A DNA stretch of 40,290 nucleotides from the NCBI GenBank assembly GCA_031279285.1, contig JAITIR010000023.1, positions 1-40,290 of the forward strand, read 5' to 3'. A program made the translations under genes and the position numbers. The notes below the pieces were generated by a model. The model saw only the letters and a program-made list of their open reading frames with translations. It was not told the origin of the DNA and made no database searches. This document shows positions 789 to 35,108 of this stretch, piece by piece. The DNA is from Spirochaetaceae bacterium (GTDB lineage: Bacteria > Spirochaetota > Spirochaetia > Treponematales > Breznakiellaceae). How positions within the stretch are numbered: position 1 is the stretch's first letter; each line of letters begins with the position of its first letter.

Positions 789-798
789 GAGGTTTAGA

Positions 799-1044: not shown

Positions 1045-1053
1045 GAGATGGGT

Positions 1054-2268: not shown

Positions 2269-2302
2269 AGGGCGGCATAAAAATAGTAATGGTCTTCCTT
2301 GC

Positions 2303-2824: not shown

Positions 2825-2868
2825 AGAAAAAGGTGGAACGCTATACTCTTGAGAACAAGGAGGTCTAA

Positions 2869-3159: not shown

Positions 3160-3184
3160 GGGATAAAGATAGCGGAGGCATAGC

Positions 3185-4813: not shown

Positions 4814-4814
4814 G

Positions 4815-6311: not shown

Positions 6312-6324
6312 AAGGAGCCCTATC

Positions 6325-7533: not shown

Positions 7534-7542
7534 GGAAAAAGG

Positions 7543-8178
7543 ATGCGGAAAAGTATGACACAAAAGGCTTCGCGGGGTTTGCTCTTGCTCTTGCTTCTGT
7601 TTCCGGGGGCGCTGCTCCCCGCCGCGTTTGCGGGCTGCGCCGCCCAGCGCAGGGTGGTGGTGGGCCTTTCAGTGGATCTGGAGGATCGCTATGCCATATA
7701 TCCTTCCATAGAATTTGACGCGGTGGCGCTTACCGAGGAGGAAACGAATCAGATCAAAAGCGGCGGGGTGGACGCGTATTTTGCCCCCGGCGGTTCCCTG
7801 CGGAAACGCGTTGATCCCTTTACCGTGTATTTTTCCCAGGAAGAGACCCGGCCCGCGGTCCTGCCCTTCCGGTCGGCCTATTGGGACCGGTGGCTCAAGA
7901 AAAAGCCCGTGACGCTGGCGCTCATCGCGGATCTGCCCCATTCGCCGGATATGCCCGAGGAGGACCCCCGGGTCCTCTATATCGATCTCAAAAAGGACGG
8001 GCTTTTCTGTAGGCCGGTGTTTGTGGAAATCGAGCCGCAAAAGATCAGCCGGGTGTATGATCTGCCCCGGGATCCCAGGACCAATCTCCCCGCGGACAAC
8101 CGGAGGCCGGACAACCGGAGGCCGGCGCTCAGAATCCACGACAACCCGGAAAGCCCGGAGGCCCTGGAGGACGATTAA
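7543..8178 (+). CDS. tssJ: T6SS outer-membrane lipoprotein TssJ
   Basis: 211 residues. A basic start, a run of seven leucines (13-19) and AFAGC with Cys32 form a lipoprotein signal. The mature part begins with a strand (RRVVVGLSVDLEDRYAIYPSIEFDAVAL) as in TssJ beta-sandwich lipoproteins, and the body is about the usual size. TssJ anchors the TssL-TssM membrane complex to the outer membrane. It sits directly before tssK, tssL and tssM in the usual order. The C-terminal tail is polar and contains a 15-bp tandem duplication (8094-8108 and 8109-8123) giving DNRRPDNRRP. Sequence identity to classic TssJ is low, so the assignment relies partly on position. ATG 7555 is an alternative start. Confidence 0.75.
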   Translation: MRKSMTQKASRGLLLLLLLFPGALLPAAFAGCAAQRRVVVGLSVDLEDRYAIYPSIEFDAVALTEEETNQIKSGGVDAYFAPGGSLRKRVDPFTVYFSQEETRPAVLPFRSAYWDRWLKKKPVTLALIADLPHSPDMPEEDPRVLYIDLKKDGLFCRPVFVEIEPQKISRVYDLPRDPRTNLPADNRRPDNRRPALRIHDNPESPEALEDD

Positions 8179-9579: not shown

Positions 9580-9589
9580 GAGGCCCTCC

Positions 9590-10300
9590 ATGAACGCTCC
9601 CGCAAACCTAGAAGAACTGTGCTGCCCTGTTTTTATCTGCTTCTGCAATTACTGGCAGTTGAACCAGACGGGGTTTCCCCCCTCACCGGAAAAATTCCGG
9701 GAGGATATTGAAGCCTCCCTGGGGGACGCCAAACTGAAAGCCTCGGCGGATCCCGCGCTGATCCGGGAATATGAACGTATAGAACGGCCCCTGGTTTTTT
9801 TTATCGACTTTATGGTCAAGGAGGGGAGCTTTCCCTTTAGCAGGGAGTGGCGGGAACTGGGCAGGAACTACAACGAGCTTTCCGGGGATGAAAAGTTTTT
9901 CAACCTCCTCTCCGATGCCCTCCGGGACAGCAAGGACCCGCATACCTTCGCCCTCTTTTATACCATGCTGGGACTGGGCTTTGAGGGGGCCTACGCGCGG
10001 GATCGGAGGTTTATCGAAAAAACCATGAAGGAATGCGAGGCCCGTTTCCCTGCGGAGCTTGATATCCGGGAAGAGCCCATTGTCGAAGTCGACACGGAAA
10101 AACGGATCGCCGGCTCAAGGCGGGTCCGGGCGCGGCGGCCCCTGCGTATGGCCCTTGTTTTTTCCTTCCTCTTTTTGATTTTTTCCCTTGCCGTTAATTT
10201 TGCCGTCTTTTTCAAAACGACTCTCCATTTCCGGGAAACCCTGTCCGGCGCCGCCGCCCAGGTCCGGGAAATTCAAACCGTCCCCTATGAGGTTCCATAA
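9590..10300 (+). CDS. tssL: T6SS inner-membrane protein TssL (DotU family)
   Basis: 236 residues, with AGGAGG at 9579-9584 and ATG at 9590. The cytoplasmic helical domain has DotU features: PVFICFCNYWQLNQTG at the start, REDIEASLGDAK, and LFYTMLGLGFEGAYARD (the DotU 'cLxLGFeGrYr' element). A single C-terminal transmembrane segment covers about residues 187-208, with a short periplasmic tail, the tail-anchored topology typical of TssL. No peptidoglycan-binding OmpA domain is fused. Its stop overlaps the tssM start (TAATG), so translation is coupled. Confidence 0.92.
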   Translation: MNAPANLEELCCPVFICFCNYWQLNQTGFPPSPEKFREDIEASLGDAKLKASADPALIREYERIERPLVFFIDFMVKEGSFPFSREWRELGRNYNELSGDEKFFNLLSDALRDSKDPHTFALFYTMLGLGFEGAYARDRRFIEKTMKECEARFPAELDIREEPIVEVDTEKRIAGSRRVRARRPLRMALVFSFLFLIFSLAVNFAVFFKTTLHFRETLSGAAAQVREIQTVPYEVP

Positions 10301-13300
10301 TGCCCCCCCAATCTTTCGCCTTTATTCAAAACGGCGTCAATCTGATACAAACCAGCACAATAGCCAAGGTCGTTGTGGCTATTGTGCTGCTCCTCCTGTT
10401 CGTTATGGTGGTTCTGCCCCTCATAGGAAAGGCCCGGCGGAAGCGGATCAAAGCAAAGGAATCCCGGGACATCCTCAAGGACCTGATGGTCTGGCGCCAT
10501 GTGGCCCGGCTTGCCCAGGGCGGGGAGGATCACAACAAAGCCAAGGAAGAACTTTCGGACAACATCGTCAAAATAAACGATCTTCTCAAACAGGGCTTTG
10601 ACCTCGCCTCCCTCCACGGTAGGGGGCTCTACGGGGTGCCCTGGTTTATGCTTCTGGGGGAGCCCGGCTCGGGAAAATCGGCCCTGCTCCGGGAGAGCGA
10701 GCTGGAACTGATTCCCTCGACGGAGGAGGAGAAGGCCGACCCGGACGACAAAAGCCTCCCCGTAAGGTTTTGGCTTGGTGGAAAGGCGGTGGTCTGCGAT
10801 GTAAGCGGCAGGGTTTTTTTTGACCGCTGGCTTGAGGGCAGCAGCGCGGAATGGACCCATATCATCAAACAGATCTGCCGCAGACACTACCGCAAGCCCC
10901 TGGACGGCGTCATCCTAACCATTCCCGCGGACGCGCTTTTGGCGGACAGCGGGGATCTGACCCGCAAAAAAGCCACCCTCATGGCAAACGAACTGGCCCA
11001 CCTGCTGGACTCAAGCGGTATGCGCCTACCCTGTTATGTGGTGGTAACCAAGCTCGACATGGTAAACGGCTTCCGGGAATATGCCCTGGGCCTTTCCGGG
11101 GAGCTACGGCGCCAGATCCTGGGCTATGAAAATAAAGGCGCCGCGTACCGGGTGGAGGATTTTAAGAAGTTCTGGGCCGTCCTGCTTTCCCGGCTCCGTT
11201 CGGGCCGCAAGAAAAGCATGGATTCCCGGGAACTACAGATCCGCCTTTCCGACGCGTCCAACCGGATGGATATAACGGGAAAGTTGTTTTTGTTCCCCGA
11301 AAATTTTGACGGCCTGTACCGCAATCTTCATATTTACCTTGAAGCCCTGTTCAGCGAAGACACCTTCCACGGAACCAAGGACACGGTTTTCGACGGGCTT
11401 TTCTTTACCAGTTCCGCGGATTCGGGCGTTTCTTTTAGCCCGGACCTTGCGGCGCTGGCGGGCAAAGCCGCCGACGACTTTATTTTAAGCGATGCAAAGC
11501 CGCCGGTGTTCCAGTCCTATTTTGTCCGGGATATGCTACAGAAGTATGTTTTTAACCCCTCCCCACACGCCGTCTTTGTCAGAAAGGAAGCTTTCAGCCG
11601 GGCGATACCCCTTCTCGGCCTCTGCGGGGTTTTGGCGGTCGCCGCCTTTATCAGCCTCTACTCCGCGCTTTTCAGAGCCGATGAACTTGCCCGATCCTTG
11701 GCCCAGGCCACCAACTATTACCAGTCCCTGAGTTCCGCGCTGCGGGAACGGGGCGCGGGCCCCCCTCTGATCATAAAAAACCAGGACAATACCTTTGCGG
11801 TTAATAACAACCCCGGCCCCCAAAACAACGGATCTTCTCCGGTGCTGTTCTACTACAACGCCCTGTCCTATAGAAACGCCAATCTGACCCCCCCTCTGGG
11901 TTTTCGCCTGGCGGATCTGCTGGTGTTTCGGGAAGCCAACATGGGCCGCCGGGACCGGGTTTTTATCACCAACCAGCTCTACGGGAGCCTTGTCAGAACC
12001 CCCCTCATAAGAAACGTGGGCTCCAAACTGGTCGATCAGTCCTTTAAGACCCCGGTCCTTAACCGGGAATTGCGTTCCGTCATTGAATCCTTTACCCGGC
12101 TTGACGAGCTGAGCCAGGATGATTTTCAGCGGATATTCCGGTCCAACCAGTACAACGCCGAAGCCATGACTAGCTATCTTCTGCCGGATATTTCCAACGA
12201 TTCCAGGTCCCTGCTCAACAGTTTTCTCCCCCGGTATGACCGGCGCTACACCTTCTCCGAAGAAGCCGCCTATGTCTACTCCGACGATTTCCTCCAGGCC
12301 AAGGACGCGGCGTTGCGGATCATCCTCTCCGCCTGGCAACGCCTCTCGGTGTATCCCGATTCCCTGTACGGCAAAATAAAAACCCTGGTCTCCCTGTCCC
12401 AGAATATCGTTACCAATTACGGACGGATCACAGCGCTCCTGCGCCGCTCCGCTGACGCGGCGTCCCTGCGGGACGTGCAAAACCTGGTTACCGAGTGGAA
12501 GGATTTGACCCAGACCCAAAACACCCTTATCGCCCGGGGCAGGCAGTTCTTTGAGGATATAAAAAACGAGATGCTCCGGGTCAATATACCCCTGGGCTTT
12601 AACGGGGACGGGGGAGGCGACCCCTTCGGCAACAACCTGATAAACGACTATCTGTTCAACGAACTGGTCATCACTTACGCGGTAAAGGATTACACGAATT
12701 ATTTTAAAAAGGACATGGACTTTGTCAGGGCGAAAGGCGCCGGAAGCCTGATCGCTGTTACGGGGACTGTCAGCGCCCTGGAGCGCGAGTTTTCCGGCGA
12801 TCTGGAGCGGGAACTTGAAACACTCCGGGCCGGCGCCGCGAGCCTTAAAAACAACGAACTCCTGTCCGGAAAAATGACCGAAGAGCCGGATTCGCAGTCC
12901 CTTTTTATGGTGGTGGAAAAAATATTGACTCTGGCCGGGGCGGTGGACATACCGGATCCGGCGCGGCTGCGGAATGCCGCCGCTGTGGATTGGATGAGCG
13001 GCCAATATGACATTGTCGCCGCCTTTGACAATTACGAAGCCTATGTTAAGCCCTTCCTGGAAAATGAAAAGGTTTCCGGCCTTATCCGTAACGGCAGGAT
13101 CGTCCTGGCGGCCCAGGCCTATCTTAACCGCGCTATTGTTTTAAGCGCCGAATACGACTTCCTCTCCAGCTCCGCCGAAACCATAAGCGCCATGATAGCC
13201 TCCCGGTCGGAAACGGAAGGCCAGGAAATTTTTTCCCTCTCCGGCAGGGCGATTCAAAGCGCGCTGGGGGGGCTGGTGTACAACCGGGGCTACGATCCGG

Positions 13301-14652
13301 GAATAGTCAAGGATATAACCGACGGCATCGCTGCGTATAACGATCTCTTTACCAACTATGCAAACCTGACCGAACCGCCGAAATTCTTGCAGAACCGTGA
13401 CGGGAGCATCTACCAGACCGACGCTTTCAGCGGCTACCTCGGTTTGTACCTCAACTATTGGGGGAATTATCCCGATAACGCCTACGTTCCTTCCCCGTCC
13501 TGGCGGGAATACCGGGCGCGGATAAACCAAACAAAGCCCTATCAGATCAATTCGGTCCTCCAGTCCCTTTACAGCGAATGTTCCGGCATAGTAAACGATG
13601 TCAACGATATCGTGTTGTCTGAGGTGTTAAAGCGGGAAAAAGCCGACTCCATCGCGTCCCTGGGCGACCGGATAAAACTGCTTTCCGCCTTTCTCAGCGC
13701 CGACGCGGATCGTATGCTCACCGCCTGGGGCAGGCTGCCCGCGGACGCTGAACCGGCCTTTAAGCATATCCGGGCCCTGCCCCTGGACGAAATTAAAGAA
13801 ACCTACATGACTGTCTATTCGGACACCCGGAATATCAGCATAGGCTGGTGGAACGATTTTATCATGGACGGAATCAACATCCTATCGAGAACCTTTTGCG
13901 ACCTAAAACTGGAGGCTTTTGCGGAGAAGCTGGAGAGCCTCAAGGTATTCCCCCTCCTTTCCGACGCCCCCCGGGATGAGACCCTGTCCCCCGCCGATCT
14001 GGAGGGCCTGACCCTGTTGCTGCAGGACATGGGGGCTGGTTATTTGCTGAAGCCGCCCGCCGAAGATCAGGACCCACTGGAACCGGCGCTGCGCCCCATC
14101 CTGTTCCGGGACGCCGCCGCCCGGGCTTGGGCGCAGACCGTCTACCAATTTGTCGCGGCCGCGGCGAACCGGGAGAAACCCCTCGCCTGGACTCTATCCC
14201 AACCGCCCATTGATATTCAGGAGAGACTGTCCATGGAGGGCCGTCTGCTCGGAGTCAACCGTTTCCGGTACCTGGAAGTATCCGCCGCGGGAAAAAGCCC
14301 CCGGTTCTTTAACACCTATACAAACGAAAAGATCAGCCTGGCCGAAGGCGGCCCCGCGGACAGGGACATACGCTTTGGGTTTTACCGGGCCTCGTCGGAC
14401 CGGAGGCCAGCGGCGGCAATTGACCTGGACAAGCCCTGGTCGATCTTTGATATCTATTTGAGCAGAAATGTCATAAAAGGCGATCAGGATATTTTATATT
14501 TCCCCGTCTTCCTTGAGGATGAACAGGGGCAGTACGTGTATTTTACGGAAATTGATTTTAACGCCGACATTCCCAGTCCGGACCGCTGGTACACCGCGGC
14601 TACCTGGCCGAATCTGAGGATTACCGACGGCATGGTCACGGTAAGCCGCTAA
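10300..14652 (+). CDS. tssM: T6SS inner-membrane protein TssM (IcmF family)
   Basis: 1450 residues, slightly longer than many TssM proteins. Transmembrane helices lie at about 22-44 and 435-457. The cytoplasmic domain between them carries a Walker A motif GEPGSGKS (120-127) and continues as a GTPase-like fold (VVVTKLDMVNGF near 247-258). After the second helix comes a very large periplasmic region ending in a beta-rich C-terminal domain, which contacts TssJ. TssM with TssL and TssJ forms the trans-envelope channel through which the needle is fired. The presence of Walker A suggests nucleotide binding is kept. It is the last gene of the operon; a hairpin follows the stop. Confidence 0.95.
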   Translation: MPPQSFAFIQNGVNLIQTSTIAKVVVAIVLLLLFVMVVLPLIGKARRKRIKAKESRDILKDLMVWRHVARLAQGGEDHNKAKEELSDNIVKINDLLKQGFDLASLHGRGLYGVPWFMLLGEPGSGKSALLRESELELIPSTEEEKADPDDKSLPVRFWLGGKAVVCDVSGRVFFDRWLEGSSAEWTHIIKQICRRHYRKPLDGVILTIPADALLADSGDLTRKKATLMANELAHLLDSSGMRLPCYVVVTKLDMVNGFREYALGLSGELRRQILGYENKGAAYRVEDFKKFWAVLLSRLRSGRKKSMDSRELQIRLSDASNRMDITGKLFLFPENFDGLYRNLHIYLEALFSEDTFHGTKDTVFDGLFFTSSADSGVSFSPDLAALAGKAADDFILSDAKPPVFQSYFVRDMLQKYVFNPSPHAVFVRKEAFSRAIPLLGLCGVLAVAAFISLYSALFRADELARSLAQATNYYQSLSSALRERGAGPPLIIKNQDNTFAVNNNPGPQNNGSSPVLFYYNALSYRNANLTPPLGFRLADLLVFREANMGRRDRVFITNQLYGSLVRTPLIRNVGSKLVDQSFKTPVLNRELRSVIESFTRLDELSQDDFQRIFRSNQYNAEAMTSYLLPDISNDSRSLLNSFLPRYDRRYTFSEEAAYVYSDDFLQAKDAALRIILSAWQRLSVYPDSLYGKIKTLVSLSQNIVTNYGRITALLRRSADAASLRDVQNLVTEWKDLTQTQNTLIARGRQFFEDIKNEMLRVNIPLGFNGDGGGDPFGNNLINDYLFNELVITYAVKDYTNYFKKDMDFVRAKGAGSLIAVTGTVSALEREFSGDLERELETLRAGAASLKNNELLSGKMTEEPDSQSLFMVVEKILTLAGAVDIPDPARLRNAAAVDWMSGQYDIVAAFDNYEAYVKPFLENEKVSGLIRNGRIVLAAQAYLNRAIVLSAEYDFLSSSAETISAMIASRSETEGQEIFSLSGRAIQSALGGLVYNRGYDPGIVKDITDGIAAYNDLFTNYANLTEPPKFLQNRDGSIYQTDAFSGYLGLYLNYWGNYPDNAYVPSPSWREYRARINQTKPYQINSVLQSLYSECSGIVNDVNDIVLSEVLKREKADSIASLGDRIKLLSAFLSADADRMLTAWGRLPADAEPAFKHIRALPLDEIKETYMTVYSDTRNISIGWWNDFIMDGINILSRTFCDLKLEAFAEKLESLKVFPLLSDAPRDETLSPADLEGLTLLLQDMGAGYLLKPPAEDQDPLEPALRPILFRDAAARAWAQTVYQFVAAAANREKPLAWTLSQPPIDIQERLSMEGRLLGVNRFRYLEVSAAGKSPRFFNTYTNEKISLAEGGPADRDIRFGFYRASSDRRPAAAIDLDKPWSIFDIYLSRNVIKGDQDILYFPVFLEDEQGQYVYFTEIDFNADIPSPDRWYTAATWPNLRITDGMVTVSR

Positions 14653-14704
14653 GGGAGTCCGCTCCGGTTTGGCAGGGCGGAGGCCGGCTCCGCCTTCCAC
14701 TCCC
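14653..14704 (+). terminator. Nested hairpin after tssM (weak terminator candidate)
   Basis: Outer arms GGGAGT (14653-14658) and ACTCCC (14699-14704) enclose an inner 7-bp stem (14676-14682 with 14688-14694). There is no clear T-tract, so it may be a rho-dependent end or an mRNA-stabilising structure. The next 150 bp to the carbonic anhydrase stop contain nothing else I can name. Confidence 0.35.
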
Positions 14705-14853
14705 TAGTGTCCGGGCAGCGCCGTCAAACACCGCCGCCCCTTCCCAGGCTCTTGCCCCCCGCGGTCCGGGAGAGAAGATAACCCTTCTCCGATAATACCG
14801 CTCAGTTTTGTCGTTCAACTCGTGGGGTAGTCGAGGATGCGGGAGTGATGTTG

Positions 14854-15729
14854 TCATTCCTCGTTCTTTGCAAGGTAAACTGGCCGCCCGTACCGGTTTT
14901 GAACCGGGCGCTTGTTCCCGCGGTACAAGGCCCGGAAAGCCTCGATCTGGTGAGGCGACATTTCTACGGGCTCCAGGGAAATGCTCCATTTAACCCCTTC
15001 CGTGCAGGGCGGCGTGGTCAGGGACCCGTCGTAGCGGCACATTTCGCGGCTGCCGGTGAACAACTCCGCCAGATCTATCTTCGGCTCCAAGGATCCTTCC
15101 CCACCAATCTCCCCGGGTAGATTTTCAAAGATCTCCCCCAGGGTTTCGTTGCGTGCCCCTTCGGTTATCATCATCCCTATAACAGCGAGATTGCCCCGGG
15201 CATCCTTGTGGACCAGATGCAATTCCATGGCAAAGGATACTCCGTCAAAGAGATGTTCGCTGGGCGCGTGGAAGTGGAATTGCTGCAACTCGTAGGATTC
15301 GCCGTCAAGAACAATGGTGTTGCCCGCGGCGGCGGGGAGTAGTTCAATGGTATGGCCGTTGTTTTCCATTTTGAAGGGGGTTTTGCGGTAGGCTATAAGC
15401 GGCTTAACCAGGTCGCCGTCCGGGATTAGTTCCGCGGTAAGGATGTCAATCGGGGATTGGGCTTTTCCGTCCCGGGCTGTCGCGTAGGCGCTGTCCAGGG
15501 CGTACCAATACTCAGGCCCGGTGTCCCCTTCGTAGCTCCAATGGGGCGTTGTTCCCGCCGGGGGACGGGGGCTTGCGGTCCGGGCCGCGGCGGCGCAGGC
15601 AACCATGACACACAGGGTCAGCCCCAGTACCGCAGTCAGGAGGAACGCCGAAAAAAGCCGTTTCCCGTAGCGCCGGTATGCCGGGCGGTTTATGGCGGAA
15701 AAATCTCTGTCTATCATAGACAACATCAT
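14854..15729 (-). CDS. Alpha-type carbonic anhydrase, exported (probable lipoprotein)
   Basis: 291 residues (about 287 from the in-frame ATG at 15717). An N-terminal hydrophobic segment (about 25-45) ends MVAC at Cys45, a relaxed lipobox of the spirochaete kind; plain cleavage is also possible. The mature domain shows the alpha-carbonic-anhydrase order: HWSYEG, QSPIDI, NNGHTIEL (His126, proton-shuttle region), FHFHAPSEH with zinc ligands His152 and His154, ELHLVH with the third ligand His171, and SLTTPPCTEGVKWSI near the end. All zinc ligands are present, so the enzyme should interconvert CO2 and bicarbonate in the periplasm or on the surface. It is transcribed towards tssM and probably single. 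No good Shine-Dalgarno was seen. Confidence 0.92.
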   Translation of the reverse strand: MMLSMIDRDFSAINRPAYRRYGKRLFSAFLLTAVLGLTLCVMVACAAAARTASPRPPAGTTPHWSYEGDTGPEYWYALDSAYATARDGKAQSPIDILTAELIPDGDLVKPLIAYRKTPFKMENNGHTIELLPAAAGNTIVLDGESYELQQFHFHAPSEHLFDGVSFAMELHLVHKDARGNLAVIGMMITEGARNETLGEIFENLPGEIGGEGSLEPKIDLAELFTGSREMCRYDGSLTTPPCTEGVKWSISLEPVEMSPHQIEAFRALYRGNKRPVQNRYGRPVYLAKNEE

Positions 15730-15802
15730 ACATCTAATTTCCCGGATTAAACAAGGGCGGGACAGTGCCCTTCAACAGGGGGCTGGTTTTGGAAAAACCC
15801 AC

Positions 15803-15831
15803 TTGATTTATTGAATAATTAAAGATAAACT
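15803..15831 (+). promoter_or_regulatory. Candidate sigma-70 promoter of the collagen-like lipoprotein
   Basis: TTGATT at 15803-15808, a 17-bp AT-rich spacer and TAAACT at 15826-15831 give a plausible promoter about 45 bp upstream of the ATG at 15877. It sits in the divergent gap with the carbonic anhydrase gene. Confidence 0.45.
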
Positions 15832-15876
15832 ACAGTATATTAAGCTGTCGGCTTTTTTATAAAAAGGGGATGAATT

Positions 15877-16515
15877 ATGAGATATATTGTGGGCTGTCTT
15901 GTCCTTTCTGTTTTCCTGTCGGCGGGTTTTGCTGCCTGCAAATCTCCCGTAGGTCCGCAGGGCGAACAGGGTCCGCAGGGCGAACGCGGATTGGACGGCG
16001 ACCAGGGACCCGCCGGGTTCTTCAAACTATATGACAATAACGATCATTTGATCGGGTATGTCCTGGGCGCGACGGTGGTGAACGACGTCCATGGCCTCTA
16101 CATCATGGCGTCTCATCAAAATAAATTATACCATCTCCTGTTATCGTGGGATGGAAACATACTGAACGATGATTCTAGAGGCGCTAATTTGTACTATGCC
16201 GCAGATAACGGCCAGGGAACTCCCTATGGAATAGATACCGGGATACCCTACCGCGTCTTTGGACATTCATGGAATGGCGGCAGTTATGATCCCAATAATC
16301 CTTCCATGTACACCTTCACAACCTATTCAGCTTCCGGGATGGGAGGAGGGACTTCTATCGACAACCCTCAAAGCCATAGAATCTCTGATTCTGACTCGCT
16401 TTATACAAACGGCGATTACTCCGGCACGTTTTACGAGCTCATAAAAATCAACTGGACGGATATAGGCTTAACAGAAAAACCGGTGGCGCCGCTCATACTT
16501 AAGCCATCGCCGTAA
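15877..16515 (+). CDS. Lipoprotein with short collagen-like triplet segment
   Basis: 212 residues. A signal peptide ends GFAAC with Cys21. Residues about 26-47 contain six or seven Gly-x-y triplets (GPQGEQGPQGERGLDGDQGP), a short collagen-like stalk at the lipid-anchored end. The rest (about 48-212) is a Tyr/Asn/Gly-rich globular domain of unknown family that may be surface displayed. The ribosome site is the AAGGGGA stretch at 15862-15868. Single gene; the neighbour downstream is convergent. A role in surface attachment is an inference only. Confidence 0.75.
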   Translation: MRYIVGCLVLSVFLSAGFAACKSPVGPQGEQGPQGERGLDGDQGPAGFFKLYDNNDHLIGYVLGATVVNDVHGLYIMASHQNKLYHLLLSWDGNILNDDSRGANLYYAADNGQGTPYGIDTGIPYRVFGHSWNGGSYDPNNPSMYTFTTYSASGMGGGTSIDNPQSHRISDSDSLYTNGDYSGTFYELIKINWTDIGLTEKPVAPLILKPSP

Positions 16516-16550
16516 GTGGAGGCGCCTTGCCGCTCAATCGGGTAGCGCTC

Positions 16551-17327
16551 TTAGAAGCGGTACTGTATCCCTAGGGCGGGGGACAGGGTCACGGCGTCCC
16601 GGTCGTTCAGACCCCCGCATTCAAGAGCGGCCTTGAGGACAAAGAAATTAAAGAAGTAATCAAATTCCGCTTTGAGGCTCAAGTACTCCAGGGATTGCTC
16701 CGCGTTGAAGGCCAATTCCCAATAAAATTGATCCTGCGCGTAATTGACGGCGAATTCCACGCCGTCAAAAGCGGCGTCCGGGGCGGCAATAAACTTTGCC
16801 GCTGCTTTAAACCCCAGCCAGAAGGGGGCAACATAGGCTGCCGTTACATCAATGCCAAAAAGGGTGTCTTCCGCAGCCTGTAGGGAGTAGCGTATGGGCG
16901 AACCCAGGGCAAAGGAAACATCCCCCCCCGGGAGAAACAGGCCGTAGCCCAACTCGGGCTTTACCGTGCCCAGGCTCTGGCCGCCGCCCTTGTCCGGGTT
17001 AAAGCGGAATTCATTTTCATTATGGGCGGCGAGCAGGAACTCTGAAAAGGAACCCAGTGGCAGATGGATGGCGGCTTTTTCGTCGGCATAGAAGAACTGG
17101 GGGAAGAAATCGATGAGGGTGAAGGTGTATTCCGCCCCCGCATGGAGATCAAAACGCCCAAAGCTCCGTTCATATTCAAGAGCGGGGGTAAGAAAATAGT
17201 CCTTCTCATCCGCCAGCACATCGGAGTTGCCGGCATACAAACCTGCCCACAGGCCGACGGCGTCCGCCATAACGTATCTGCCAGGAAATAAAGAAAAGAA
17301 CAGAAAAAACCAAAGGCATTTTTGCAT
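16551..17327 (-). CDS. Outer-membrane beta-barrel-like protein
   Basis: 258 residues from the ATG at 17327, preferred over an in-frame upstream start because GAGGTG lies 7 bp before it. A signal peptide (MQKCLWFFLFFSLFPG..., cleaved near VMADA) precedes alternating-hydrophobicity strands such as YSLQAAEDTLFGIDVTAAYV and FYWELAFNAEQSLEYLSLKAEFDYFF. The chain ends LGIQYRF with a terminal Phe, the usual beta-barrel assembly signature. It is probably a small outer-membrane channel or structural protein. No specific family is recognised, and it is probably monocistronic. Confidence 0.65.
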   Translation of the reverse strand: MQKCLWFFLFFSLFPGRYVMADAVGLWAGLYAGNSDVLADEKDYFLTPALEYERSFGRFDLHAGAEYTFTLIDFFPQFFYADEKAAIHLPLGSFSEFLLAAHNENEFRFNPDKGGGQSLGTVKPELGYGLFLPGGDVSFALGSPIRYSLQAAEDTLFGIDVTAAYVAPFWLGFKAAAKFIAAPDAAFDGVEFAVNYAQDQFYWELAFNAEQSLEYLSLKAEFDYFFNFFVLKAALECGGLNDRDAVTLSPALGIQYRF

Positions 17328-26113: not shown

Positions 26114-26159
26114 ACACGGGACGGGATGACCCATACGAACTTCAGATCGGCTCTCACCA

Positions 26160-27251
26160 TCAACTGTTCATCGAGATAGCATAAGGTATTTTTGATGTAA
26201 GTATTTTAACAGTCCTTAGCCAGTACTTGCTTTTACAAAACCGACTCACCTGTTCCGCGATTCTATTTTGATCAGCCATAGGCGCTATAGTGATGCTAAC
26301 TATGGGAAGATGACCCTCACAAATAATTGGTCTTGGGTCTTCAGGATTTTTTTCACGCAAAAAATCCCACATTGCGGAATGCAACTCTGATTGGTTACGA
26401 CAATTCGGCAATAAAACAGGCACACCTGGCATATTAGGATTGTTGCATATTTTTGTTAGATTTTTCTCTATGAGTCTTTCTCTTTTCGTAGAGTCTTTTA
26501 TGAAACCATGTTTTACAACAATAAATGGTATTTTTGTTCCATTTTTTAATGACTTAAATCTAATACATTCTGAAAGTTTATCGTCCGAATTTGAAAGTAT
26601 AACCCTAAATTCTTTTTCCTGACAAAATTGTGGAAGCTTAAATAACGGCACAAACCAACTTTCTTTCAACGAATTACCGTTACTTTTATTCTCATATTCC
26701 AGTAGTTGAAATACTATTTTTTGTCTGTCTCGTACAAACTGGCTTGTTTCCGTTAAAGGTTCTATCTCGTCATTTAGGTATATTACAGGAACAGCAACAC
26801 TTGTGACAATATGAAACTTTTTATTGAATTCATAATCTGCGTGGAGTACACTAAAACTTGATACTCTTCCTGTATATTTACTATCAAAATGAAAACCAAT
26901 GGAAGCCCCGCCATTGTTACAATATCCCCGCCATTGACTCAAGGTATCGCCTTCATCAGCACTCAAGCTAAAGGCAAAATTATCACTTTGATAATTTATC
27001 TCTTTAAGCTTTTCTTTACCAACAATCTTTTCCTCTGTAAGATCGTTTGAAAAAGGCAAACTGAAAAACCAGAGCGAATCATTTTCTAATAGGTTAAAAA
27101 GTGTTTCCATGGATGTATAATGGTATAGTTCTAGGGGGAAGAAAACCATCTTCTTGCCTTTTGGAGAATGAGCATAAATTTCCTCATTATGTTTTTCAAG
27201 AAAACTTTTTATTTTTTCTGCATTCCCTTTATTATTTAGTGAGATTGACAT
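26160..27251 (-). CDS. DUF2971 protein, third gene of the AT-rich operon
   Basis: 363 residues. The DUF2971 hallmarks are LYHYTSMETLFNLLENDSLW (42-61), FSLPFSND (63-70), and FSLSADEGDTLSQWRGYCN with GGASIGFHFDS (94-124). A later LPQFCQEKEFRVIL segment is the conserved Glu-Phe-Arg element. The family is widespread in mobile and defence-like neighbourhoods and has no settled activity that I know. The YHYT...S...EFR order resembles ADP-ribosyltransferase-like folds, which is an inference only. The start overlaps the end of the receiver-like gene by 20 bp, with a GTAGAGG ribosome site, so translation is coupled. Last gene of the operon. Confidence 0.78.
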   Translation of the reverse strand: MSISLNNKGNAEKIKSFLEKHNEEIYAHSPKGKKMVFFPLELYHYTSMETLFNLLENDSLWFFSLPFSNDLTEEKIVGKEKLKEINYQSDNFAFSLSADEGDTLSQWRGYCNNGGASIGFHFDSKYTGRVSSFSVLHADYEFNKKFHIVTSVAVPVIYLNDEIEPLTETSQFVRDRQKIVFQLLEYENKSNGNSLKESWFVPLFKLPQFCQEKEFRVILSNSDDKLSECIRFKSLKNGTKIPFIVVKHGFIKDSTKRERLIEKNLTKICNNPNMPGVPVLLPNCRNQSELHSAMWDFLREKNPEDPRPIICEGHLPIVSITIAPMADQNRIAEQVSRFCKSKYWLRTVKILTSKIPYAISMNS

Positions 27252-27879
27252 CCTCTACCCCTATACCAAAGAACTTTAAGAATTCTTTCTGTTCATCAGA
27301 ATCCTCCATTAGCAGTCTTTGTTCTCTAAAAAAAACAAATTCTTTATGACTTACTATAAAAGGCTTAATAGTCGGGTATAGATCAGGATTATACCAAGAA
27401 TAGATAAATATTTTGATATTTGACCTGTTTGATAATTCCTTAAGTATTTCATCCGTCAGGGTTTCTTTGGATTCAGTGCCCTCTCTATTAAGTCTGATAT
27501 CTACACCAATAACAACCGTATCTTTACTATCATTGTTTTGAATAATCTTATCAATAATTCTAACTACATCATCACAAGATGAATTATCTGGTAAATCATA
27601 CGGTTTTGTTGGGATAAGACTTTCTTTCTTTTTGTAATATTCATCTAATGTATCATCTCCTTTTTGTTCATAACAAAACTGATAAAATAAATTTGTAATA
27701 ATACCCTGTAGTTTATCAACAAAACCCTTTCTATCCGCCTCCGGTTCCTCTTCCCTATAATTATCACCAACAAGAATCATTTTGTTGCAAACATTATGCG
27801 TCCATAAAATATGGGAAAGAGAAACACTGATTTGTGTCAACCGGGAAATAGTATCATCAATCCAAATCATTGTTTTCAT
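27232..27879 (-). CDS. Receiver-like protein, second gene of the AT-rich operon
   Basis: 215 residues from ATG 27879, chosen because AGGAGG lies 8 bp upstream; an in-frame upstream start lacks one. The N-terminus MKTMIWIDDTISRL has the acidic pair (Asp8-Asp9) of a response-regulator beta-1 strand. VVIGVDIRLNREG (122-134) resembles a phosphoacceptor strand with Asp127, and IFIYSWYNPDLYP (157-169) a later strand with Ser161; a Lys follows at 179. The gap between Asp9 and Asp127 is far longer than in a normal receiver and would be an insert of about 60 helical residues. I read this as a divergent receiver-like fold with moderate doubt. No DNA-binding domain is present. The stop overlaps the DUF2971 start. 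Confidence 0.55.
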   Translation of the reverse strand: MKTMIWIDDTISRLTQISVSLSHILWTHNVCNKMILVGDNYREEEPEADRKGFVDKLQGIITNLFYQFCYEQKGDDTLDEYYKKKESLIPTKPYDLPDNSSCDDVVRIIDKIIQNNDSKDTVVIGVDIRLNREGTESKETLTDEILKELSNRSNIKIFIYSWYNPDLYPTIKPFIVSHKEFVFFREQRLLMEDSDEQKEFLKFFGIGVEDVNLTK

Positions 27880-27890
27880 TTTATATCCTC

Positions 27891-30800
27891 CTATGAATCG
27901 AATAACGGCAATGTGGAAACAAACCATAATTCCACTTTATCGAAGTAGTATCCAAAAAGCGTTTTAAGGCCATTCTGATAATTCTCATTTAATTCAGAAG
28001 ATGATTTATACTCAAACCATTTATTTTCACTGGTGCTTTTTTTACTGGTGTTTTTGCCGAAATCATCCTTATATGGATTGTTTTTGAGATATTTTGAGAT
28101 AGCAAGCAAACTCATGTGTCCATCAAAACAATCAAGAGTATCCGTAAGTCGTCTATAGATTTTTTCATTTTGCTGCTTATCGGTGTTGAGAATATTATTA
28201 TATACCGGATTTACCGGATTAATAATAATCAAATTCCTGCCATCACGCATAAATAAAACCCGATAGATCAACACGCCATAGCTTTTTATTGCGTCTTTTT
28301 CTCTTTCATTACAGTTGTTAATATCATATTCCCTGCATATTTTTGAAAACTGTTCTTTGATTTTTATCAATTTCTGTATCCGAGTCAGAAAATCAACATT
28401 TTCATGCCAATACTTTGCGCCTGTTAAAATAATATCAAATAAAATACACTTTAAATACTCTTTAACAAAAGAACCACATTTGCCCGAACGAATTAAAGAA
28501 TCTTTAATATCTGTAATATCAGATACTTCTGTAAAAGCCTTACACATCCTAACACGCTTGTCGTTTTCATCCCATATATCGCAAAATCTTTCTGCTTTCT
28601 GTGCAAAGCTATCCGTATTGTCAATATCAGCTTCTTCCAAGTATAATCGCGGTTTGTGATTATCATTTTGTTCATTTTCTTGATACAGTAATGACTGATT
28701 AAATATTTTTGCAATTTCATGGTTGATGTAATTTCTAAAAAGCAACCACACATATTTATCAAACGGACCATATTTATCAAATGCATCGGTTTTTTCTGCT
28801 TTATTCCAAATTACCGCGGATAATTGGTCGTCAGAAGTTGATGTATGGCTGACCGACTTTTCATGTCTAAGTACGGCATTTTCGGAGGCTGTCTTTGCGT
28901 GGGTCTGCATCAAATGACTGTTAAAGTCGTCTTTAAACATAGTTATGATTAGATTTCTGTATGTTAAAATATCACGCAAAACCAAAAATGGAATGACATT
29001 GCTCTTGGAAGAATCATTTTTAAAATCGAACCTGATATATAAATAAACATTCTCAATTTCTTCTTTATCAAACCGTATAATAACAAATGGTTTTTTAAAA
29101 GAGTTATTATCTGCTTCCTGATCAAATTTATCAGGCGTTTCAGAACCATCTTTATTCTCCGCCGTAATAACTACATAGCCGTCCTGTTTCAGGTTGCCAT
29201 GCATGGAACAATTTGAATTTTGTTTATATTCATCTTCCGATGCCATGATTATTCGTTGTTTAATAATGTATTTTGCATCTGACGGCGAATGAGGAGGATT
29301 TTCTCTAAAATCAACTGAAATAAAATCAAGATGATCCATATCAATTTTATCGGATTTATTTTGAACAACAATAGCAAGCCGCATTGTATTCTTTTCAATG
29401 TCGTATTTTTCACTAATTGTCCTCTTGATTCGTAACAATATTAGTTCATATTTTTTTAGAGTATTTTTCGTATTGTGTCCTTCAGTTTTTATTAAATCAA
29501 ATAGTTTTCTTTCAGTTGCACATAGGCCATTATTGGGCACTCCCGCCCAACTGAAATTCCATTCCCTGAACTTCGCAAAAGTTTGCAGAAAATAATTTGT
29601 ATTTGACTGAGTACCTTGCTCATTCGGCAATTTATAAATACCGTCAAAAATTAACCGCGTATTTTGAATAAATATCTCCATACAGAATTCTTTAAATATT
29701 TCTTTTTTCCAGGAATAACGCATATCAGAGTAATTTTTTTCTGAAGAAACTATTGCATCGAACAAAGGTAAAGATTTGCCTTTTTGGGGTTGTTTATTAT
29801 CATTTCGATTTAGAACATATTCGGTGCCATGAGAAAAAAGATGCTCCATCCATAACGAGCGCGTTTCATCGCCGCCACTATCAATTATATAGTGAATAAG
29901 GAAGGCATACTTATTCCAAAAATTTCTTATTATTGTTTTATCGTTAGAATTATGGTTTAGAATATATAGATATACACTTTTTATCACATGCTCTCTTAAT
30001 AAGTAGTTACTTCTCATATCAGACAACGACTCAAATAAAAAATCTTTTAGAAAAGTCAATATACTTTCAGACTCAGGACATTCACAGGTAAAAAGATGTT
30101 TTACGCTTTTGATAATTTCTTTGTACTCATTATTAATAACTTCATCTGATATAATCGCTTCAGACATACATATTAATAATTTATAAACCTCTTTTCTAAG
30201 TTCAAAATTGTATGACAAGAATGGCCGCGATATTACCTTTATTGCATTTTGAATCAACCATATCGTTTTTTCCGAACCCGTATTAACTTCTTCCATGGAC
30301 TCATAAGCAACTTTTACCAAAATTGATTCTTCATCATTGGCCTCAAACTCATCGCTTGTATTGAGAATAATATTGAGAAATTCTATTAGTGCTTTTTTAT
30401 AATCTTGGCCATATTTCTTAATAATTGTTTCAGCAGCATGATTTATAATAAAGCGCACAAATGCCTTATTCCCGCTATGTTTATTCATTTCTTTAGTAGT
30501 ATCAAACGAAATCGGTTTGTAATCATCCGTTTTCTTCTTCCAATAGTCCGCAAAAGTTTTTGTCGAACTTCGTTTTAATAAATATTTCGCTTCCTCTTCA
30601 AACTTGCAGCCAACACATGAATCGCCTTGAGTGCGCATATTGGAAATATGTATATTACAAAATGAAAGAAAATTGTTTTCCTGCCAGGCTACATAAGCCT
30701 CCTTTGATTTATCTGAAAGACGATTTATCAAACAAAAAACTTTCTCAAAAATATTTCTTTGTTTAGAGCCAATTGTGTAACTGTCTCTTTGTTCTTTTGG

Positions 30801-33800
30801 AAGAAGGGACAGCGATAAAGAATTGGCTCTTTGGAAACTCTCACCCGTGATAATCCCGTCATCTACAAAGTAAAATTTTACCGCAAATTTTTCGGAAAAC
30901 AATCGTTCAATTGTTTGATTAAGAGCATAGTGTTCACAAACAAAGTTTGATCGAAATTGTTTATGTACATTTATTGAGACAATTTCGGCAGCGCCATTGA
31001 AATAGTGAGCGTTTACCAGTTGAGAGAAACCCGCATTTGTATTATGTTCAGGCGCAAATATAATATTCAGAACAGGAGTGCCATTTTTTTCTTCCTGCCT
31101 TCTTTTAGTATCTTTTTCCCGTTCATCAGTCAACCATTTTATTACCAGTTGTTGAATTTTTGGCCTGGCAATATATTTTTGGGTATCAAAATAATACTGA
31201 TAATGGTTGGCTCCGCGGACAATATGTCCATAATACACACAATCCTTCAGCTCTTCAAATTTGACCTTTATACCGTCTAAATCCGATCCAGTTTCTTCTA
31301 TCGGCGACGCTTTATTTTCTGACGTCTCAATTTGATAAAATTGAAAAGCGGGAACCGTCGAAGTTCTGTCAGTTTCGATCAACGGGATTTCATCCCAAAC
31401 CTTATCTGGAAAACATTGTTTACAATTAATAGGTTTAGACCATGATGACATGGCGGAGAAAATATACGAGATTTTTTTGCAATCTTTCAATTCAACAAGT
31501 TTAGCGGTATCTACAGTTACCGTGCGGTTGCTTGTATCTATACTTTTCCATAGTTCATTCTCAATCGGTGTTATGTCATCAGGCATTGCCGTTGTCCCAT
31601 CATCTTTTATAGTAAACAAGTCCCCGTTAGGCGGTATCGGCAGCGTATGATGAGCGCTGGAAATGTTGATTTTATCCCGTATAAGAAAGACTGTATAATT
31701 GGCAGTGAGATGTGGGTATTCATTCTTTCGTTCTTTCGAGTATTGTGCCCACATTTTATCAAATGTTGTCAACGTAGAAGCAATAGGAACAATTTGGATA
31801 ACCGCGGTAGGTTTACCGGAATCCGAATTTTTACGCGTGCTATAAATCTGAATAGGAGTTTGGTCAGATTTTGATTCAGATTGAATATTGTATTGATATG
31901 AAGCGTAATATATATTAACGCCAGCTCTGTTCTTAAAATATTCAGTTAACATTTCATGCAGTGAAAACACTAAAGACTGCGAATAAGAAGCATACCCGTA
32001 AAACACAATATCCCTTTCCCCTTTTTCCGCGATCCTGGTTAATATACTTTCGCTTTCCAGTTTTCTAATAATATAAAAAGCTATTCTATTTGCGATAGAT
32101 GTCCTGTGGAATAAAAAGGACATTTCATAAAATGAATTTGCATGAACTTTGTTTCCCAAACGGACATGTATATTTCGAAATAAATAGCCTGGTTCTTCTT
32201 TTGAAGGTGAAACAAGGTCTTTATTTGCAATGTTCAAGATACTTTTGTAAAATTGTGGAAGTTTATCTTTGTTTTCAGGATACTCAAAAACGGTAAAAGG
32301 ACAAATCGGTATGGCTGTTTCCGGCATCGCAAGCATAGATCTATACAAAGCCAGAATATCGGAAGCGTTTCGGTAATGGGAAGAATCAAAACTCTTTTCA
32401 CCATGTTCCAGCGACATGATATACGCGTTTTGAACAACATGTCCAACGTTGTTACCTGCCAAAATTGCTTGATTTGGATAAATACTTTTTTCATTACTTT
32501 CACACGAGAAGAAAACCTGTAGGTTTGTCGGATAATCCAACAGACTTAAAGGAACGCTCACAGATTGAAGTGTATTAATGAATGATACAGGAAGATTCTC
32601 AAAATAAAATAACAAAGGATCATTATCTTGTGTCTTGTGAACAGACAAAGAGGCGGCCGCAAAAAAACCTTTTAGGAAAACTTCACAAATAGTCGGGTTT
32701 TTTAGTTTTTCAAAAAGTATCCTTTTTTCATCATTTTTAACATCGCACCAGTAAAGTGTTTTATGGTCTTTCTGTATTGGATTCAGTAAGTTTAACCAAA
32801 AGTTCTTAAAATCTTCTACAGTTTTTTTCTTATCTTCAAAACTTTTTATATCCCAGGAATAAAACTGACTGTCACTGCTTCTTAGTTTAACTGATTCATT
32901 TTCCCACATTTTGTTTGAAACTTTATAATCCAGGTATTTTGAAAAAGCCAGGTGATTTTCATTAAATGCATTATTGTTGGCTAATTGAACCAGATTTACT
33001 GGCCCCATTTTTTCATAATAATTTGTTGGTATTGTAAAATAAAAATGTGTACCGGGGATTGTGAAATTTTGTCCGTGCCGTTGTTCACCGGTAGAATTGG
33101 AAGCATAATAATTATTTTTGTTATTTGCTAATCTGTGTGCCGGATTGCTGATAATTTCTAAACAATGATAGTTACATTTTTTCAGTGTATGATAAAACAT
33201 TGTTAGTCCTATGTGGCCGGAAGAGTCTTTTTTCCGATAATTATACCACGCGTTAAGAACGGGAGCGGGAGAGTCGCTGAAATCACCAACAAGCTGATTT
33301 AATGATAAATTGACTTCAGGCCGATCAAAAACATTAATTTTATTTTCTGTTGTTAAAGTTTGCCTAAAAGTTTCTATGATGCCCATTTTCTCATTTAGGT
33401 CGCTAATCCGAACCGCTAAACACTCATCATTTTTATATATTTCTTTGAAGATGGAAATAAAGCACTCACGATTCTGCGAATGTTGGATGGCGTTTTGAAC
33501 AATTTGACGAATCCCTTCTCCCAGTTCCATGGCAAATTTCGAGGTTTCTTGAACAGTTTTCCTGATTTTTGCATTTGCTTCTTTTTCCGTGCATTTTCGT
33601 AAGTTGAGTAAATAGCTAAAAATTGAAAATGTAAAACGATCTGTATTTTTTGTGAAATTTAGAATATCAGGGATAAATTTCACGATTGCTTCTCTACCCA
33701 ATGTTAATATTTCGTTAATATCTTCAACTTTTTGTCTATCCGGATGGATCGCGGCAAATTGTATTAATAATCTTTGCCGGGCTTCATCCAATAACATATC

Positions 33801-34709
33801 GGCTATAGCTTCTCGAGGATCTTCTTTTCCCGCATCATTGAATGGCCGCGGATTATTGCTTTTTATTTTATATGAGAGTCCGTTTTTTATCGTACCAGAA
33901 TCTGCCATACCAGTTGTTTCAAAAACACGGGAATAATTATCAATTGTCTGATTATTGATGGCGGCTGGTCTTGTTAAATACAACAACGGAAATATCAGCA
34001 AATCCCTGTCACGTTCTCTGAATCCTAAAGCTTCAGCCTTGCCTCCGGAAGAACTGGCATATACAACTCCATTGTGTGTCTTCGTAATTAACCGTAAATA
34101 TTGTGAAGCTATTTTGTAAAGTGACACATCCGGATCAATATCATCTTCGGCAAAATAACAATTGACCCCTGTATGGGGAATTAAATATACACTAACTAAG
34201 CCTGAGAGTGCGTTTGGTGCAAAAACCGGGTGTTCATCATTTTTTAAGTGTGTTAAATTTAAGCTTTGTAAAAACAGTGCAAGAAAATGCAGATTGTCAA
34301 CATGCTTATATTCTTTTGTTACTTCGTCATAGTCAAACTGTACACGAATATGATAGTGCGGCCGCCGCATATTTTTTTTATTTATCTGCCAATTATTAAC
34401 AAATTGTACCAGAGATTGTTCCTCTTGCTCGATCCGGACCGGAGTGCGTGCGAAATGTCCAGGCCTCAAAGATACTTCCATCTTGTCATTGGGACCATTT
34501 GACCGGGTATTAAGACTGAAATTAAAAGCATCATCTAAATTGGCTTTTTTACAAATCTTTAAGAATGACTTTATGTTTTCACTTAACTCGTTTTCATTAA
34601 CTACATTTAAAATATTACTTTCAAAATATTCTATCGCTTCCGAACAGTGCGCATAACATTCGTGCCGATTGTTTACTTTAAATACAAGTACAATTTCCTC
34701 GTTTTTCAT
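27891..34709 (-). CDS. 2272-residue GHKL ATPase / tandem phosphoribosyltransferase-like protein
   Basis: Starts at ATG 34709 with AGGAG six bases upstream. Residues 1-380 have no family I recognise. About 385-540 look like a GHKL (Hsp90/histidine-kinase/MutL) ATPase: N-box GIRQIVQNAIQHSQN with Asn406, a weak G1 box at Asp437 (DLNEKMGI), and a lid/G2 GHIGLTMFYHTLKK at 498-511. About 845-1010 resembles a phosphoribosyltransferase: RLGNKVHANSFYEM, DIVFYGYASYSQSLVF, and a degenerate PRPP loop IVPIASTLTTF near 972-982. About 1180-1300 is a second one with a canonical PRPP loop FVDDGIITGES (1281-1291). CxxC pairs occur near 1095 and 1365. From about 1400 to the end it is long and helical. It is coupled to the receiver-like gene 11 bp downstream. 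A stress or conflict role is inferred. Confidence 0.8.
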   Translation of the reverse strand: MKNEEIVLVFKVNNRHECYAHCSEAIEYFESNILNVVNENELSENIKSFLKICKKANLDDAFNFSLNTRSNGPNDKMEVSLRPGHFARTPVRIEQEEQSLVQFVNNWQINKKNMRRPHYHIRVQFDYDEVTKEYKHVDNLHFLALFLQSLNLTHLKNDEHPVFAPNALSGLVSVYLIPHTGVNCYFAEDDIDPDVSLYKIASQYLRLITKTHNGVVYASSSGGKAEALGFRERDRDLLIFPLLYLTRPAAINNQTIDNYSRVFETTGMADSGTIKNGLSYKIKSNNPRPFNDAGKEDPREAIADMLLDEARQRLLIQFAAIHPDRQKVEDINEILTLGREAIVKFIPDILNFTKNTDRFTFSIFSYLLNLRKCTEKEANAKIRKTVQETSKFAMELGEGIRQIVQNAIQHSQNRECFISIFKEIYKNDECLAVRISDLNEKMGIIETFRQTLTTENKINVFDRPEVNLSLNQLVGDFSDSPAPVLNAWYNYRKKDSSGHIGLTMFYHTLKKCNYHCLEIISNPAHRLANNKNNYYASNSTGEQRHGQNFTIPGTHFYFTIPTNYYEKMGPVNLVQLANNNAFNENHLAFSKYLDYKVSNKMWENESVKLRSSDSQFYSWDIKSFEDKKKTVEDFKNFWLNLLNPIQKDHKTLYWCDVKNDEKRILFEKLKNPTICEVFLKGFFAAASLSVHKTQDNDPLLFYFENLPVSFINTLQSVSVPLSLLDYPTNLQVFFSCESNEKSIYPNQAILAGNNVGHVVQNAYIMSLEHGEKSFDSSHYRNASDILALYRSMLAMPETAIPICPFTVFEYPENKDKLPQFYKSILNIANKDLVSPSKEEPGYLFRNIHVRLGNKVHANSFYEMSFLFHRTSIANRIAFYIIRKLESESILTRIAEKGERDIVFYGYASYSQSLVFSLHEMLTEYFKNRAGVNIYYASYQYNIQSESKSDQTPIQIYSTRKNSDSGKPTAVIQIVPIASTLTTFDKMWAQYSKERKNEYPHLTANYTVFLIRDKINISSAHHTLPIPPNGDLFTIKDDGTTAMPDDITPIENELWKSIDTSNRTVTVDTAKLVELKDCKKISYIFSAMSSWSKPINCKQCFPDKVWDEIPLIETDRTSTVPAFQFYQIETSENKASPIEETGSDLDGIKVKFEELKDCVYYGHIVRGANHYQYYFDTQKYIARPKIQQLVIKWLTDEREKDTKRRQEEKNGTPVLNIIFAPEHNTNAGFSQLVNAHYFNGAAEIVSINVHKQFRSNFVCEHYALNQTIERLFSEKFAVKFYFVDDGIITGESFQRANSLSLSLLPKEQRDSYTIGSKQRNIFEKVFCLINRLSDKSKEAYVAWQENNFLSFCNIHISNMRTQGDSCVGCKFEEEAKYLLKRSSTKTFADYWKKKTDDYKPISFDTTKEMNKHSGNKAFVRFIINHAAETIIKKYGQDYKKALIEFLNIILNTSDEFEANDEESILVKVAYESMEEVNTGSEKTIWLIQNAIKVISRPFLSYNFELRKEVYKLLICMSEAIISDEVINNEYKEIIKSVKHLFTCECPESESILTFLKDFLFESLSDMRSNYLLREHVIKSVYLYILNHNSNDKTIIRNFWNKYAFLIHYIIDSGGDETRSLWMEHLFSHGTEYVLNRNDNKQPQKGKSLPLFDAIVSSEKNYSDMRYSWKKEIFKEFCMEIFIQNTRLIFDGIYKLPNEQGTQSNTNYFLQTFAKFREWNFSWAGVPNNGLCATERKLFDLIKTEGHNTKNTLKKYELILLRIKRTISEKYDIEKNTMRLAIVVQNKSDKIDMDHLDFISVDFRENPPHSPSDAKYIIKQRIIMASEDEYKQNSNCSMHGNLKQDGYVVITAENKDGSETPDKFDQEADNNSFKKPFVIIRFDKEEIENVYLYIRFDFKNDSSKSNVIPFLVLRDILTYRNLIITMFKDDFNSHLMQTHAKTASENAVLRHEKSVSHTSTSDDQLSAVIWNKAEKTDAFDKYGPFDKYVWLLFRNYINHEIAKIFNQSLLYQENEQNDNHKPRLYLEEADIDNTDSFAQKAERFCDIWDENDKRVRMCKAFTEVSDITDIKDSLIRSGKCGSFVKEYLKCILFDIILTGAKYWHENVDFLTRIQKLIKIKEQFSKICREYDINNCNEREKDAIKSYGVLIYRVLFMRDGRNLIIINPVNPVYNNILNTDKQQNEKIYRRLTDTLDCFDGHMSLLAISKYLKNNPYKDDFGKNTSKKSTSENKWFEYKSSSELNENYQNGLKTLFGYYFDKVELWFVSTLPLFDS

Positions 34710-34767
34710 AGGATCTCCTAAAAAAGTCTAAGATTTATCTTTGATTTAAGGAGTCTTTTCACGCTGT

Positions 34768-34908
34768 ATGCCTTTTGCATCTCATCGTATCGCCCAAGCC
34801 CTGGTTGCCACATCCGAAATAATACCACCGCCTCACTCTAAAATTGAAATTCGCGGTGTATTGCACTTTATGAATCGTATTCCGATGAAACATCTGTACC
34901 CATGCTAG
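34768..34908 (+). pseudogene. 46-codon open frame, possible transposase scrap
   Basis: ATG at 34768 to TAG at 34906; an AAGGAG lies 14 bp upstream, which is too far for comfort. The central phrase SKIEIRGVLHFMNR faintly resembles the 'E-x-R-x-V-I-x-F-L' N-terminal region of mariner/IS630-type transposases, but the match is too short to be firm. It may equally be random open sequence. Worth noting only because it sits at the edge of the AT-rich block. Confidence 0.2.
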
Positions 34909-35038
34909 AGTAGGAGGTTGTTCGCTATTATCTCGCATTTTTCCAGCTTATAACAGTTAATAAGTTTTGTAAAGATTGGTATATTACACGGATGCCTGCG
35001 ACTCTACTCCTGTGGTTTGGTACAGGCCGGCCTATCGA

Positions 35039-35068
35039 TTGACATTGTTAAATAACTCGGCATAGTAT
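35039..35068 (+). promoter_or_regulatory. Candidate sigma-70 promoter of the ABC importer operon
   Basis: TTGACA (35039-35044), an 18-bp spacer and TAGTAT (35063-35068) lie 40 bp before the ATG at 35109. A GGAGGG ribosome site is at 35100-35105. No Fur box or riboswitch fold was recognised around it. Confidence 0.55.
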
Positions 35069-35108
35069 TCTTGAGGGTGCTTATTCGCAGCATCGGTTTG
35101 GAGGGTTT

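Follow-up and report, generated by a model that had tools for sequence, protein, structure and literature searches.

We investigated one window, the whole 40,290-nucleotide stretch at positions 1 to 40,290 of contig JAITIR010000023.1 from a Spirochaetaceae bacterium (GenBank assembly GCA_031279285.1), in which a low-GC island (26114..35090, 34% GC) carries an operon of three genes. All three lie on the minus strand, as do the parts of the proteins described below, and they encode a giant protein with GHKL ATPase and phosphoribosyltransferase (PRTase)-like regions, a receiver (REC) protein, and a DUF2971 protein. The giant gene (27891..34709), the first of the operon, encodes 2272 amino acids and is supported by its open reading frame (ORF) and by homologues. 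The ORF runs from 34709 to 27891, and its ATG start is preceded by a good Shine-Dalgarno sequence, AGGAG. A plus-strand reading of the same coordinates was rejected, as that frame was riddled with stops and held no ORF. The length and the residues that a preliminary description of this DNA had quoted from the translation were correct (N406, GHIGL at 498, IVPIASTLTT at 973-982, and VDDGIITGES at 1282-1291), the strand being minus. The REC gene (27232..27879) encodes 215 amino acids from an ATG supported by an AGGAGG site (the ORF call gives 231 amino acids from 27927), and its start at 27879 lies about 12 bases past the stop codon of the giant. The third gene (26160..27251, 363 amino acids) overlaps the end of the REC gene. 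Its product, P0003, a putative effector, passed the Pfam cut-off for DUF2971 (PF11185; E = 1e-4, 23.9 bits vs. 22), and its ortholog in the relative L001 scored 24.8 bits. An inverted repeat, AAGAT-TT-ATCTT, is present at 34730-34741, just upstream of the giant start, and is a possible operator.

The operon genes have a GC content of 34% and a third-position GC content (GC3) of 0.25-0.30, compared to a GC3 of 0.63-0.73 in four flanking genes and a genome of about 55% GC. DNA similarity to genomes of the same genus ends at ~26.1 kb and at 35.0-35.2 kb of the window. Given this composition and the broken similarity, the three-gene set looks horizontally acquired. No direct repeats were found at the island ends. 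The locus has a PHP-domain gene on one side and, on the other, an ABC transporter of the iron/B12 type (both named by eye). At the equivalent site (L039), the same-genus genome G004 carries neither the island nor the ABC transporter genes; the site is therefore variable, and a clean empty site with both flanks was not seen. In that genome (G004:C241, 1472-3207), about 1.7 kb past the PHP gene, the sequence joins a region matching 38.7 kb of the window.

When 84,980 species genomes were searched by pattern, two relatives of the giant emerged. The first (L001), in a Treponema metagenome-assembled genome (MAG), shares 41% identity and the same three genes, with its giant cut by the contig end; the second (L002), in a Bacteroidetes MAG, shares 26% identity. 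Six further loci (L015, L016, L017, L018, L020, and L032) came from searching Spirochaetota and Bacteroidota genomes with profiles; ~1,700 genomes were covered in partly overlapping samples, with profile sensitivity rising between rounds. The giant family is rare and patchy. One other candidate, G817, was not counted as a member (E 4e-4, internal stop), and searches of phage, plasmid, and viral-contig collections with the giants returned no relatives. Pfam, NCBIfam, and PADLOC scans of the window giant gave no meaningful domain match, and sequence searches of the PDB matched neither the giant, queried whole and by its core, nor the DUF2971 protein.

The giant gene is directly followed by a REC gene at every one of the nine loci (the window, L001, L002, L015-L018, L020, and L032). 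The C-terminal 190 residues of the giant matched histidine kinases (HKs) in profile-profile comparison (hhalign probability 96%, E 2e-9), marking a second, HK-type GHKL domain (GHKL #2, residues 2081-2272, 27894..28469), and the C-terminal GHKL of L015 matched HATPase_c in Pfam at E = 6e-6. The N-box Asn of this domain is kept in six relatives (L002, L015-L018, and L032) and lost in the window (ILTGAKY), L001, and L020. In the window, GHKL #2 looks inactive and GHKL #1, described below, looks intact. The REC family profile matched response regulators in the PDB, and several members matched Response_reg in Pfam. With positions picked by eye, the beta-3 Asp and beta-4 Ser/Thr could be placed in 9/9 members and the active-site Lys in 7/9. 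The window protein has the DD pair, D127, and the Ser, with an Arg at the expected Lys as in L001 (also by eye). Pfam scans of the nine REC proteins assigned no DNA-binding output domain.

What follows or is fused to the receiver varies. In the window and L001, the receiver is followed by DUF2971. The receiver of L015 is fused to a Shedu SduA nuclease (Pfam 1.6e-13; PADLOC 1e-17) and that of L032 to transmembrane (TM) helices (by eye). A metallo-beta-lactamase (MBL)-fold gene follows the receiver in L015 and L020 (Pfam), and a small membrane protein (by eye) follows it in L017.

The neighborhoods of the relatives were also investigated. In L020, a Treponema-family MAG, the giant lies beside AbiH, DUF4917 (PDC-S21), and the Gabija genes GajA/GajB (7e-163, 7e-135) at 475-6563. 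The type I restriction-modification (R-M) methylase HsdM is encoded near the giant in L032 (PADLOC). In L017, a 1067-residue metallophosphoesterase encoded upstream of the giant (4918-8121) matches PADLOC "Effector" and PDC-S60. L015 carries a TOTE-type primase-helicase and a phage-type integrase (tyrosine recombinase) about 1.7 kb upstream of the giant (13357-16908), and the neighbors in L001 include a methyltransferase match and a resolvase. Two genes upstream of the L032 giant (8975-12931; 371 and 945 amino acids), on the side opposite to HsdM, had no Pfam or PADLOC match.

These features bear on whether the island simply encodes a two-component-like regulator, ordinary or stress-responsive, with no role in defense. 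The HK-type GHKL at the giant C-terminus and the receiver with its Asp, Ser/Thr, and mostly conserved Lys (as placed by eye) resemble a two-component pair, and the window locus, between a PHP-domain gene and an ABC transporter, would suit such a regulator. However, we consider this reading quite unlikely, given that no DNA-binding output was assigned to any of the nine receivers, that a nuclease and TM helices are among the outputs, and that relatives adjoin Gabija, AbiH, and R-M genes. The giant further differs from two-component systems in having PRTase-like domains and, in full-length members, two ATPase domains, and no conserved DHp His was found. Membership in the paraMORC-linked HEF_HK / Response_reg_2 family, a two-component-like gene pair with GHKL and receiver-like products near R-M systems, would account for the same broad pairing in conflict loci (PMC8011034), but is very improbable. 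The corresponding families PF19191 and PF19192 were unmatched at Pfam E<=1 for the window proteins, the L001 and L002 proteins, and the other giants, and at E<=0.5 for most other RECs; the published description is without PRTase-like domains or a C-terminal HK-type GHKL, and the architecture of the giant family differs.

The N-terminal GHKL ATPase (GHKL #1, residues 376-563, 33021..33584) contains the expected motifs in order: the N-box with N406, ISDLNEKMGI (G1, with D437), GHIGL at 498 (G2), and GTHFYF at 553 (GT). The motif set (E/Q..xN..xH, D..GI, GL, GTHxxxxxP) is kept in 4/4 family members possessing the region. Searched as a cut segment, this part of the giant matched HATPase_c in Pfam only at E = 0.21 (residues 396-439). 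Its alignment matched a Pfam-confirmed HATPase protein with an hhalign probability of 96% (E 1e-8), a test that is not fully independent because the target protein had first been found with the family's own profile; against ordinary HKs, the probability was only 47% over 20 columns. An AlphaFold2 (AF2) model of residues 330-610, built from a 2-sequence alignment, had a predicted local distance difference test score (pLDDT) of 36.8, too low a confidence to speak for or against a Bergerat fold. Family conservation and profile-profile comparison back the GHKL ATPase at Asn406 that the preliminary description had recognized.

The same description had placed two PRTase-like regions in tandem after this ATPase, and the two regions fared differently. 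PRTase-like region 2 (residues 1155-1380, 30570..31247) contains the phosphoribosyl pyrophosphate (PRPP) loop VDDGIITGES at 30837-30866 and a C1365xxC1368 pair. The loop (FVDDGIITGES in the window) recurs with variants across nine relatives and is canonical in most members, with degenerate forms in L015 (IATSKT) and L016 (IAKGNT). The region 2 alignment, in which the row of the window starts mid-segment, matched bona fide PRTases from eight genomes with hhalign probabilities of 77-84% (E 7e-6 to 2e-5), compared to <1% for unrelated ATPase controls. The loop is at the center of this match, which extends over 33-84 columns, and certain PRTase subfamilies matched less well. Two relatives gave sub-threshold Pfam matches at the same position (PRTase_2, 0.11, in L015; Pribosyltran, 0.14). 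Conservation across the family and hhalign thus favor a PRTase-like domain around residue 1282. Region 1 (residues 841-1020, 31650..32189) has the loop IVPIASTLTT at 31764-31793, which lacks an acidic pair. Its motif, PIxST.[ST]T, is conserved in 7/8 members carrying the region, with a variant in L032, yet no profile comparison supports a PRTase here: the alignment of eight sequences against PRTases gave an hhalign probability of about 0.1%, with no significant similarity. The tandem is therefore unproven, as is the PRTase identity of region 1.

The likeness in region 2 could also have arisen by convergence of the loop motif on a different Rossmann-like fold, leaving a GHKL/REC system devoid of PRTase chemistry. 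We regard this as somewhat unlikely. It would fit the lack of PRTase similarity in region 1, the moderate and loop-centered match of region 2, and the low confidence of the AF2 model of residues 841-1400 (pLDDT 37.1). A Foldseek search with that model returned nothing at E<=0.001, and a strand-helix order seen in it around both loops was given no weight. Conversely, the alignment of region 2 to the pooled PRTase set covers 84 columns and includes the strand preceding the loop, and the controls stayed below 1%.

If the region is a working PRTase, the system could instead be built on a nucleotide messenger, in which the PRTase-like domains would make a nucleoside-like signal from PRPP, the DUF2971 protein would be activated by that messenger and not by a phosphorylated receiver, and the receiver would have a regulatory or phosphate-handling part. 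This agrees with the PRTase match and with a PRPP loop that is canonical in most members, as it does with PRTase_2 being the nearest sub-threshold Pfam match of L015. We take the PRTase_2 family (PF15609) to be associated with Ter loci, and the giant resembles Ter-system PRTases in having PRTase-like domains in a conflict setting. In Ter systems, PRTases and HAD enzymes have been described as signal makers (PMC7824862). On the other hand, no HAD, TerB/TerD, or other Ter partner turned up among the genes scanned, and the loops of L015 and L016 are degenerate. Receivers are moreover fused to a nuclease or TM output, and the receiver itself would therefore carry the signal. Overall, we find a messenger system unlikely. 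Assignment to the Ter system proper was rejected, as the PRTase_2 match (0.11) occurred in one relative only and no Ter family was found among the genes scanned.

The constant pairing of giant and receiver, the swappable outputs, and the defense neighborhoods are best explained by a defense module. We predict, at a probability of roughly 55% and from sequence comparison, that the island is a horizontally acquired module against phages or other mobile elements, and probably an undescribed variant of receiver-coupled defense. Several observations weigh against this prediction. The family consists of nine loci in two phyla, mostly from MAGs, and known defense genes adjoin the giant at about four or five of the nine, a raw count with no background rate alongside. 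The window operon itself lies among housekeeping genes and not in a defense island, with no known defense gene in the region examined, and neither the giant nor its partner proteins matched known anti-phage systems in the PADLOC 2.0.0 hidden Markov models. The molecular parts are also unevenly kept. The giants of L017, L020, and L032 are without the N-terminal GHKL; the N-box Asn of GHKL #2 is missing from the window and L001; and the L020 giant has no intact N-box at all. Between the domains, the linker (residues 1907-2080, 28470..28991) may be DHp-like and has RHEKSVSH at 1948, yet the aligned giants showed no column with a phospho-acceptor His across the family, though several members have a His near the expected place. 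Finally, the AF2 model of the PRTase regions yielded no usable fold.

In such a defense module, the giant, a soluble protein, would sense infection, probably through its GHKL ATPase and PRTase-like domain. For the latter, the signal may be PRPP or a nucleotide that it binds; alternatively, the domain may produce a messenger. The GHKL switch would then signal, by conformation or by a phosphoryl group, to the adjacently encoded receiver, which would turn on an effector. This would be the DUF2971 protein in the window and, in relatives, the receiver-fused Shedu nuclease or membrane helices; the adjacently encoded MBL-fold protein is a less clear candidate. A more specific version, in which the giant reads the PRPP or nucleotide state of the cell as its infection signal and relays it through the receiver to interchangeable effectors (nuclease, membrane, or DUF2971), is tentative, and we would put the odds against it. 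The preliminary description had proposed a sensor-plus-nucleotide-effector machine, which captured only half of the picture. The C-terminal HK-type ATPase, the receiver and DUF2971 genes, the low-GC island, and the defense context of the relatives point to a receiver-coupled defense module more than to a self-contained machine.

Detocs, reportedly a defense operon of sensor kinase, receiver, and effector, with a purine nucleoside phosphorylase (PNP) as an effector (Rousset et al. 2023), is similar in that logic, as compared by outline and not by sequence. Here, the sensor is a giant, PRTase-like, cytosolic protein and the candidate effectors are a Shedu nuclease, TM helices, DUF2971, and an MBL-fold protein; no match to the PNP effector family (PF01048) was found among the operon genes scanned with Pfam. 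Detocs is among listed defense systems (PMC10952713). GHKL and Shedu have been coupled before in VcSduA, within a single chain (PMC12137116), whereas in L015 the SduA_C nuclease is borne by the separate receiver protein, at 1/9 loci and not in the window. A 2026 machine-learning survey includes among its predictions, in a figure legend, systems that have HATPase and REC domains and may or may not overlap with the giant family (PMC13092281). The preliminary description had noted no described system with this layout, and we likewise found none in the open-access literature, subscription papers being outside that coverage. If the defense reading is true, the family would represent a rare, undescribed class of prokaryotic defense with a conserved core of giant switch protein and receiver and an exchangeable effector, and a second case beside Detocs of two-component logic serving immunity. 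It would also be, to our knowledge, the first with a PRTase-like domain in the sensor, by which sensing of infection through PRPP or nucleotide pools would become directly testable, and DUF2971, a family of unknown function, would gain a testable role as a defense effector.

DUF2971 genes were also seen in other neighborhoods. One of four linked the family to defense, and three others, on plasmids, had no clear annotated defense gene. On plasmid p2 of Rhizobium sp. NZLR1 (L079, 7929-12686), a DUF2971 gene directly precedes a PD-Lambda-4_A homologue (1.5e-242), which resembles the window in setting DUF2971 beside a large, sensor-like protein. The large Rhizobium protein has a weak P-loop ATPase match and is not a GHKL/PRTase protein, and the DUF2971 protein beside it matches the PADLOC candidate PDC-S31, which the window protein does not. 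Speculatively, DUF2971 may resemble ADP-ribosyltransferases.

Two further parts of the giant were delimited. The mid-to-C region (residues 1383-1740, 29490..30563) is presumed by eye to be mostly helical and belongs to no known family. The N-terminal region (residues 1-375, 33585..34709) had no family match; in relatives, the stretch before GHKL #1 resembles STAS, as judged by eye. At another locus (L033, 4451-5362), the family profile found a small protein, encoded on its own, that has a GHKL domain and an N-terminus that appears STAS-like.

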